Positions 36,260 through 38,552 of a stretch of 54,878 nt of DNA are shown one piece after another. The stretch is taken from assembly GCA_016281775.1 (NCBI GenBank), contig JAEEJH010000091.1, positions 1 through 54,878 on the forward strand. The letters run 5' to 3'. Under the pieces are notes generated by a model. The model saw only the letters and a list, made by a program, of their open reading frames with translations. It did not search any database and had not been told where the DNA came from. Each line of letters starts with the position of its first letter. The stretch's first letter is position 1. Origin of the DNA: Clostridiales bacterium (GTDB lineage: Bacteria; Bacillota; Clostridia; Oscillospirales; CAG-272). Made by a program: the position numbers and the translations under genes.

Positions 36260-36964
36260 TTAATCTTTTTTGTCTTTGAGTTTTTCGAGCAGGTCGGGGC
36301 GGTATTTCGCCGTCTGTTCGACCGCCTTTTCCCTGCGCCATTTCGCTATGTTTTCGTGATGTCCCGACAAGAGTATATCGGGTACTTTTCTGCCTCTGAA
36401 TTCGTACGGTCTCGTATACTGCGGATATTCGAGAAGGCCCGACGCGATGCTCTCGTCGAGATAGCAGCTTTCATCCGCGAGAACACCCGGTATCAGCCGC
36501 GCCACGCAGTCGGTAAGTATGCACGCGGGCAGCTCGCCGCCGGTGAGAACGTAGTCTCCGATCGATATACGCTCGTCGACGACCTCTTCGAGCGCCCTCT
36601 CGTCGATACCCTCGTAATGACCGCAGAGGATGATCAGATCGTCATAAGCGGATAAGCGCGCCGCAGTTTCGTGATCGAGTATTTTGCCTTTAGGATCCAT
36701 GTAGACCGTGCGTTTTTTCGACGTATCGGGTATTTTTGCAGAGATCGCGTCGTGGCAGGCGCATACGGGCGGAGCCGCCATGAGCATGCCCATACCGCCG
36801 CCGTAAGGCGTATCGTCGACCTTGTTGTGCTTATTGTTCGCATAGTCTCTTATGTTATAAACGTTCACCGTTATCGCGCCCGATTGCCGCGCCCTGCCGA
36901 TTATGCTCTCGGAAAGGACCGTATCGACGAGCGCGGGAAAAAGCGTCATTATATGAAAATTCAT
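36260..36964 (-). CDS. trmD: tRNA (guanine37-N1)-methyltransferase TrmD
   Basis: [25 protein letters not shown]...[13 protein letters not shown]...[11 protein letters not shown]...[15 protein letters not shown]. Confidence 0.97.
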
Positions 36965-37461
36965 TCGAACATTCCCTCGATAGGTTTTATAAATACCGCT
37001 TCGTCGGTCAGCTTTTTTATGAACTGCGGCACGTCCGGGACCTGTACCGTTCCCTTTTCCGTTTTGATGAAATAGATATCCGAAGCGGGATATTCCTCGA
37101 TGCTTTCGACGGTGCCGTAAACTCTGCCGTCGTCGGCGTCGAGCACCGGCAGACCGATGAGATCGCAGATCAGTATCTTGTTTTTCGGCAGATGCAGATC
37201 TTCGCGGTCAACGTAGACCGTTTTGCCTTTGAGCGCCGCGGCATCTTCTACGGTGTCGACACCTTCGAATTTGACGACCGCCGAATTTTTCGAGCCGTGC
37301 GAAGACGTTACGGAAAGATACCTCTCCCCGTTTTCGTCGAGATACAGCTTTTTGATCTTATAAAACGACGAAGGTTCGCCGCACCATAATTCTATTTTCA
37401 CTTCTCCGCGCACGCCGTGCGTCATACGGATGAAGCCCTGTTCGATATATTTTTTCTTCAA
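36961..37461 (-). CDS. rimM: Ribosome maturation factor RimM
   Basis: [16 protein letters not shown]...[22 protein letters not shown]...[14 protein letters not shown]. Confidence 0.92.
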
Positions 37462-37515
37462 CTTTTATTCCTGTTCTCCGTATAACGGTTTTCTCATTTC
37501 TTTAAACTGCGATTC

Positions 37516-37700
37516 ATATCGCGTCAGCGATATCTCGAGCCGCGTAAGCGGCATATCGAGCGCAAAGCGCATATCGAACCGCGTCAGCGGTATATCGATT
37601 TTTATCGATATATCTCCTGACGGAGATTCGATATTTTGCACGGTGTGCAAATCGATATAGGCTCATTTCATTCGCCTTCGATATATCGCCTTACGGCGAT
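37516..37700. repeat. Array of ~8 short GC-stem hairpins separated by atatcga-type spacers
   Basis: atatcgc-gtca-gcgatat; gccgc-gtaa-gcggc; gcgc-aaa-gcgc; accgc-gtca-gcggt; tatatcgat-tttt-atcgatata; atctcc-tgac-ggagat; tttgcac-ggt-gtgcaaa; atcgcc-ttac-ggcgat. Confidence 0.9.
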
Positions 37701-37863
37701 GTGTTTTATTTTTTTGATTCAGAAAGCCTTTTTATATACGCGACCGTCATCTCCCGGTACATAACAAAAAACATTTTTACTACTGCATCATACCATATTT
37801 TTTTGATTATTGCAAGGGTTTTTTAAAAAAATAATCAAACGGTCCCAAATTTCAAATTATTTA

Positions 37864-37892
37864 TTGACATTGAACTATATTTGTATTATAAT
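37864..37892 (+). promoter_or_regulatory. Sigma-A-type promoter
   Basis: TTGACA - 17 bp - TATAAT upstream of 37923. Confidence 0.7.
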
Positions 37893-37922
37893 AAATTTAA
37901 TAGAATCAGGGAGGAGCCTTTT

Positions 37923-38552
37923 ATGGAAGAACGGACGCCGTTATTTAAAACTTATGAAACGGAAGACAGTTTCGATCAAAGATACAAAAGAGTGACGTAC
38001 AGGATCAACAAAGCCGAAACGGCGTACGACGCGGCGTTCGTTTTACTGTGCATCGTACTTCCGATATGCAGCATCACCCTCATAACGCTTGCCGTACTGA
38101 AAGGCGCTTATACGTCGACAGCTGCCGGCGCGTTTCTTCTGCTGCTCTCGGTATTTTATATATGGCGTCTGCCGTATTTCGTCGTTAAAAGAAGATGGAA
38201 GGAATATGAGAAAAACGGAAATCCTCCGTGCACGACGCTTTACTATGAAGACTGCCTCACCATCGAAAACGGTCAGGATACGAGAAAATTTGAGTATAAG
38301 GATATAACGTATATTGAAAAAAACGATGACGGGATATATATGCGTTATAAAGACAAGATCGCCGTATCCGCGCCTTATTCCGCTTTTGTTATCGGCGATC
38401 CGGACGGTCTGTTCGATCTCATTTCATCAAAAGCGAACACGGAAAAAAAGGCTTCCCCCTCATTTATAATCAATACGGCGTTTATGTTTATTCTGATCGC
38501 CGCCGTGATCGCCGTTACGGTGATACTGAGTCTGAATTATCTGAAAATTTAA
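37923..38552 (+). CDS. Small membrane protein, YcxB-like
   Basis: gggaggag RBS; two TM helices followed by TTLYYEDCLTIENGQDTRKFEYKDITYIEKNDDGIYMRYKDK. Confidence 0.5.
   Translation: MEERTPLFKTYETEDSFDQRYKRVTYRINKAETAYDAAFVLLCIVLPICSITLITLAVLKGAYTSTAAGAFLLLLSVFYIWRLPYFVVKRRWKEYEKNGNPPCTTLYYEDCLTIENGQDTRKFEYKDITYIEKNDDGIYMRYKDKIAVSAPYSAFVIGDPDGLFDLISSKANTEKKASPSFIINTAFMFILIAAVIAVTVILSLNYLKI

Follow-up and report, generated by a model that had tools for sequence, protein, structure and literature searches.

Based upon its layout and its relatives in other genomes, we propose that the hairpin array at positions 37515–37703 of the window (the whole 54,878-nucleotide stretch of Clostridiales bacterium DNA analysed here) is likely to be an ORF-less, dispersed copy of a family of elements, each built from two inverted arms in which heptamers space the hairpins. 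In full-length members of this family a gene for a 23S rRNA intervening-sequence protein (IVP/S23/TIGR02436) lies between the arms or right behind them. The window array itself has two inverted heptamer-spaced arms, with the spacer and layout found in the IVP-carrying elements, and is probably non-autonomous.

Structure of the array

The array contains nine hairpins, namely HP0 to HP7 and one central hairpin. The initial annotation had counted about eight mini-hairpins; the array is real, but HP6 (37659–37677), the stem of which is interrupted by tandem G-A, had been missed. The description of a hairpin repeat with conserved spacers was borne out by the occurrence of ATATCGA in the left half (37553, 37571 and 37592) and of TCGATAT in the right half (37605, 37628, 37652 and 37678). 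Since the right-half spacers are the reverse complement of those on the left, the array is inverted and not a direct repeat, a point absent from the initial annotation. Its parts, with the basis for each, are:

37515–37703, plus strand: whole hairpin-array element, ORF-less copy, with left arm HP0–HP3, centre, and right arm HP4–HP7 (sequence, repeats; same-order copies in its own genome)
37516–37533, plus strand: HP0, ATATCGC-gtca-GCGATAT (repeat analysis)
37539–37552, plus strand: HP1, GCCGC-gtaa-GCGGC (sequence, slot alignment)
37553–37559, plus strand: spacer heptamer ATATCGA (motif count)
37560–37570, plus strand: HP2, GCGC-aaa-GCGC (sequence, slot alignment)
37571–37577, plus strand: spacer heptamer ATATCGA (motif count)
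37578–37591, plus strand: HP3, ACCGC-gtca-GCGGT (sequence, slot alignment)
37592–37611, no strand: centre, ATATCGAT-tttt-ATCGATAT, the position of the IVP ORF in full-length relatives of the same layout (repeat analysis; comparison with locus L389, G014:C40)
37612–37627, minus strand: HP4, ATCTCC-tgac-GGAGAT, with a GNNA loop on the minus strand (sequence, slot alignment)
37628–37634, minus strand: spacer heptamer, ATATCGA on the minus strand (motif count)
37635–37651, minus strand: HP5, TTTGCAC-ggt-GTGCAAA (repeat analysis)
37652–37658, minus strand: spacer heptamer (motif count)
37659–37677, minus strand: HP6, reading AGGC-GA-AT-gaa-AT-GA-GCCT on the minus strand, with a tandem G-A internal loop (internal-loop analysis)
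37678–37684, minus strand: spacer heptamer (motif count)
37685–37700, minus strand: HP7, ATCGCC-ttac-GGCGAT, then GTG and a T-run, terminator-like on the plus strand (sequence)

Across the whole window ATATCGA occurs 38 times, against a mean of 15.8 and a maximum of 25 in shuffles, and the occurrences outside the array are scattered singles. The array folds strongly as a single strand, both as RNA of the minus strand (z = -7.4 against shuffles) and as DNA of the plus strand (z = -9.25; 0 of 200 shuffles as good). In both predicted folds the spacers of one arm pair with those of the other, which would leave the hairpins as side arms on a long stem. An Rfam scan gave a best score of 15.5 bits against a gathering cutoff of 73, and thus no match to a known family above cutoff. 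No IVP ORF was found within or near the array, the centre of which is ATATCGATttttATCGATAT; hence the window copy is an ORF-less derivative.

The array had been judged neither a CRISPR nor a terminator; we agree as to CRISPR and, less firmly, as to an ordinary terminator. With CRISPR it shares the regular alternation of constant and variable segments, but its constant part measures only 7 nt, hairpins make up the variable part, and the halves are inverted; it lacks identical repeats longer than 20 nt separated by unique, non-palindromic spacers, and cas genes were absent from the neighbourhood read. An intrinsic terminator would be a single GC stem with a U-tract downstream of a gene; HP7 and its T-run resemble one on the plus strand, but no plus-strand gene ends there.

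Copies in the same genome and distribution

A search of the same genome revealed at least six further copies (C136:8162, C136:4966, C88:2042, C175:21399, C24:9349 and C178:58507, these being among 47 matches of all strengths). Pattern searches, which the initial annotation had proposed, agree with these copies, and controls gave zero hits. The array is thus not a unique and decaying one: hairpin order is the same across the aligned copies, while the stems vary by compensatory changes and the heptamer is conserved. The copies are dispersed elements with a fixed order of hairpins and not the product of local tandem expansion, which disposes of the suggestion of an expanding hairpin satellite. 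A sister set of arrays with the spacer ATATCGC is found in the same genome.

When the copies were aligned slot by slot, 148 of the 155 stem cells paired and 28 carried changes in both partners; after shuffling of the 3' letters there were 118 paired cells (maximum 131) and a mean of 7.7 double changes (maximum 15). As the alignment was made by hand and the copies are related, the covariation is strong but carries no probability.

A scan of GTDB contigs located at least 120 stretches, which among the matches listed come mostly from gut Clostridia and Oscillospiraceae assemblies. In Clostridia loci fetched from these matches, 86% of 172 distinct units form hairpins whose stems reach 3 bp or more, compared to 0 of 64 in chance matches from other taxa. 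The strict ATATCGA pattern was present in 22 of the 146 genomes of the window's family (at least one of which, G076, looks like a chance match) and in none of the controls. When any base was allowed at the last spacer position, 10 of 12 genomes within the genus matched, in very different numbers. Such a patchy spread fits a mobile or readily lost element. Among viral contigs, only 6 of 66 pattern matches were real arrays and three loci encoded IVP, so that phages are not a main carrier.

The IVP gene and its coupling to the arrays

The ORF of about 116 codons next to the arrays encodes a member of the 23S rRNA intervening-sequence family (PF05635/TIGR02436), a four-helix-bundle protein. The L087 product gives E=1.6e-25 against TIGR02436 (four helix bundle protein) and E=2.5e-22 against PF05635 (23S_rRNA_IVP). 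The nearest solved chain is an uncharacterised protein (2rld_A, E=2e-30). TBLASTN analysis found the ORF in 13 of the array loci fetched, where a stricter motif search for the IVP signature had found one, and in 12 of these 13 it lies beside or inside an ATATCGA/ATATCGC array; at L140 the ORF has no directly adjacent ATATCG array. Nine of the proteins, when aligned, show a mean identity of 79%. The usual order is an array ending in ATATCGACAAAA or similar, a ribosome-binding site, and ATG. At L389 (G014:C40) four left hairpins, an intact IVP ORF and four right hairpins follow one another, a layout which is the full-length form of the convergent layout in the window.

The association extends beyond ATATCGA. 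A profile of the protein gave seven matches with E<=1e-61 among the 146 family genomes (the A1 clade), all in genomes with ATATCGA arrays, and many lower matches. Other IVP ORFs have arrays of the same design upstream with spacers of the ATTTCAC, ATATCAC, ATTTAGC, ACTTCAC, CATCAT, CTTCATT and TCATAA types. Family-wide, a script counted an array upstream of 36 of 40 IVP ORFs (30 of 34 when the six ATATCGA loci found through their arrays are left out), compared to 2 of 40 downstream and 2 of 542 control windows. Hairpins with stems of at least 5 bp averaged 6.25 per 360 nt upstream of these ORFs versus 1.5 in control windows. On a protein tree of 48 tips the nine spacer types require 10 changes, while shuffled types required a mean of 30.5 and a minimum of 25. 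Since spacer and ORF are inherited together, this clade coupling shows that the two make up one element but does not, by itself, prove binding. As the full-length relatives carry the gene, the IVP family gains a likely and testable partner.

The genome of the window contains an IVP gene fragment at a contig end (C138) and a second IVP gene with ATGATG spacers (C143); no IVP of the ATATCGA clade was seen in this assembly, which is 90.7% complete. The window copy may therefore be an immobile relic that lacks an active partner, unless that partner is missing from the assembly.

IVP homologs were rarer in a sample of 300 genomes of the phylum (12 genomes). Seven of 13 phylum loci, versus 0 of 13 controls, were flanked on both sides by at least three inverted copies of a simple heptamer without hairpins, in a sample which is small and AT-rich. 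Individual examples of distant IVP genes in other families with inverted tandem heptamers lacking hairpins are L480, L482, L483, L484, L485 and L488.

Strand preference and the nucleic acid probably recognised

With all units turned to the ATATCG orientation, G(N)NA loops are found in 167 of 305 perfect units and T(N)NC loops in none. A C-G pair closes 84% of the loops, and among tandem internal loops GA/GA outnumbers TC/TC by 33 to 0. Each module is thus strand-specific and turns with the spacer, such that the strand favoured by the left arm is opposite to that favoured by the right. GNRA tetraloops (47) are no more common than GNYA (51), GNA triloops are abundant, and stems show only a slight excess of G-T (24) over A-C (13) pairs. 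GNA loops are very stable in DNA, while RNA would prefer GNRA. Given the lack of a GNRA preference together with strand-specific loops, hairpins of single-stranded DNA are the more likely target, and we lean towards recognition of single-stranded DNA at each end. At either end of the element the IVP would then recognise modules of hairpin plus heptamer on one of the DNA strands, might copy, move or maintain the element, and could act in trans on ORF-less copies such as the window array. Against a mobilising role counts the fact that no enzymatic activity of IVP is known.

These strand-specific features also bear upon the proposal that the array is a neutral cluster of palindromes, with template switching keeping the arms complementary and no protein partner involved. 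The stems are perfect yet free in sequence, and other palindromic repeats of the same genomes nest into hairpin loops, both of which speak for it; the constraint on structure could be partly mutational, through template switching at palindromes. As a full account we regard it as highly improbable, since it leaves unexplained the invariant heptamer and its switch with the protein clade, the strand-specific loops, the tandem GA motifs and the conserved hairpin order.

The rimM site and other array sites

The location between divergent rimM and membrane-protein genes, as initially annotated, was confirmed. The features surrounding the array are:

36961–37461, minus strand: rimM, 16S rRNA processing protein (Pfam RimM, E=1.3e-18)
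37465–37509, minus strand: C-terminal remnant, about 14 codons (..QFKEMRKPLYGEQE*), of a GH99-like gene (comparison with congeners)
37815–37787, minus strand: promoter-like TTGCAA-17-TATGAT with an extended -10, which would put the array in the rimM leader (consensus match only, 9 of 12, not above chance for the region)
37881–38552, plus strand: gene for a small YcxB-like membrane protein, start at about 37924 (reading frame, domain search)

In four congeners (G004, G005, G006 and G007) there is no array at rimM, and the gene directly upstream specifies a GH99-like protein of about 375 amino acids, whose Pfam match to GH99 is weak and below cutoff. In the window, the remnant QFKEMRKPLYGEQE* directly abuts HP0, and no other part of the genome yielded the remainder of the GH99-like gene. 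The M55 and GH123 genes nearby stand in synteny with those of G005. The loss of the GH99-like gene amid these syntenic neighbours indicates that the array marks a recent replacement and not an ancient rimM leader; the copy would lie at the breakpoint of the lost gene. In G005 the interval from the M55 peptidase gene to rimM lacks the YcxB-like gene (37881–38552), which may have come with the rearrangement.

Arrays also occur at unrelated genes. One lies between the promoter (read by eye) and the start of an ABC-F gene in the window's genome and in G005; the ABC-F leader has no array in G002 and G003 and is different again in G008. Another lies upstream of mutL as a shared copy, shortened in G005 and longer in the window's genome, and one is situated between leuA and leuC (gene names from reading the flanks). 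The proposal of an RNA-structured leader for the rimM operon stands only in so far as the array is possibly transcribed within the 5' leader of rimM, with a candidate promoter beyond it; a rimM-specific leader is not supported, given the four array-less congeners and the copies at other genes.

In a broader form, the array would be a cis-acting structured RNA leader kept for regulating the expression of rimM, mutL, leuC, ABC-F and IVP genes. Several copies do occupy likely 5' leaders or operon interiors, folding as RNA is strong, and IVP ORFs have an array as their leader. We nevertheless consider this unlikely because of the congeners without an array at rimM or ABC-F, the varying orientation of arrays relative to genes, the favoured loop lying on the other strand in half of the hairpins, the even counts of GNRA and GNYA loops, the small excess of G-T over A-C pairs and the absence of an Rfam match. 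Explaining the rimM copy as a dispersed ORF-less element needs no regulatory role.

A MITE of a classical DNA transposon would have terminal inverted repeats with a target-site duplication. The arms of the array are inverted; at near-identical copies, inspected by eye, the ends look discrete and no consistent target-site duplication was seen; L122 has one 7-nt candidate which was not repeated elsewhere. Neither a clean target-site duplication nor a precise empty site was obtained at the copies and sites compared.

Two recurrent settings were seen among IVP elements. At L393, L395, L397, L400, L402, L403 and L405 the element, as read by eye, directly follows a tRNA gene and a terminator-like hairpin, which suggests a preferred insertion site. 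In L087, L236, L091, L388, L390 and L391 the site is the 3' terminus of a gene resembling a 23S rRNA uracil methyltransferase, and the element there starts with the reverse complement of the host's own gene tail, giving a host-specific junction hairpin which may reflect snap-back copying.

Comparison with known elements

We file the array among the dispersed palindromic elements with a protein partner, and on analogy it would appear to work most like REPINs with RAYTs. REPIN/REP-RAYT systems likewise comprise dispersed extragenic palindromes with inverted pairs, compensatory changes and sequence types each beside its own protein lineage (PMC3116915). The array differs in having many hairpins with unrelated stems, a constant heptamer spacer, and IVP rather than a Y1 HUH transposase as partner; the conserved REP palindrome is absent, as stems vary and the heptamer is kept.

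These likenesses, including a conserved linker beside a variable hairpin (PMC3116915), would also suit a REPIN/BIME relative moved non-autonomously by an IS200/IS605- or RAYT-type HUH transposase, with the IVP gene as a passenger. We think this very unlikely. The Y1 transposase (PF01797) shows no association with arrays, being present in about 9 of 22 array genomes and, among the rest of the 146 family genomes, in a comparable proportion (lists compared by hand). G048, near-complete in 10 contigs, has arrays but no Y1 match; the window's genome (a MAG, 90.7% complete) has one at E=9.8e-4 only, below the Pfam cutoff. The gene which actually adjoins the arrays encodes IVP.

The 23S rRNA intervening sequence with its S23p ORF in Coxiella (PMC4990558) is also a structured element with an IVP/S23 ORF between complementary arms, and such sequences have been suspected of mobility since 1993 (PMC4990558). 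Unlike these, the array elements lie outside rRNA genes (the window copy between rimM and a membrane-protein gene), their arms are heptamer-spaced hairpin arrays, and many copies are ORF-less.

Modular stem-loop repeats are known elsewhere. Pneumococcal BOX elements are of this type, often intergenic and transcribed. Other bacterial small interspersed repeats are described similarly, as modular stem-loops, often intergenic and transcribed (PMC3049150). Both have different modules and no IVP gene, a distinction drawn from their descriptions.

Knowledge of the IVP/S23 proteins goes back to the description of 23S rRNA intervening sequences; the literature read gives them no function, and one old hypothesis is that the ORF aids mobility (PMC4990558). 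PF05635 is said to resemble Avd of diversity-generating retroelements and to belong to the same four-helix-bundle superfamily (PMC10053308), though neither a reverse transcriptase nor a template/variable repeat was noticed at the loci read. We tentatively suggest that IVP/S23 four-helix-bundle proteins, as Avd relatives, and clade-specific heptamer-hairpin arrays serving as recognition ends could quite possibly constitute an unnamed class of mobile elements, with ORF-less satellites across gut Clostridia. If true, this would also give a role to the protein that 23S rRNA intervening sequences encode, and would account for a dispersed hairpin repeat of many gut Clostridia assemblies, the contigs of which sometimes end inside it. 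A clade-specific nucleic-acid partner beside most IVP genes of one bacterial family permits a direct test of binding or mobility. In the open-access literature searched we found nothing on ATATCGA arrays, on Clostridia hairpin arrays or on such arrays next to IVP genes; this argues only weakly for novelty.

Other repeats at the arrays

A second palindromic repeat, of the GGGGTTCCC...GGGAACCCC type, was found within the loops or stems of array hairpins at L008, L333, L336, L338, L344 and L346, as if inserting at hairpin tips. A further family of hairpin repeats, the variable-core palindromes GTAGGGGCGACCATTGGTCGTCCG, abuts arrays in G008 (L332, L334 and L337). In "divergent" arrays (L113, L122, L111 and L117) the first hairpin arm can pair either with its neighbour or with a second, distant copy. 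Alternative pairings, for example of AGATCCGC with two copies of GCGGATCT, could represent a structural switch.
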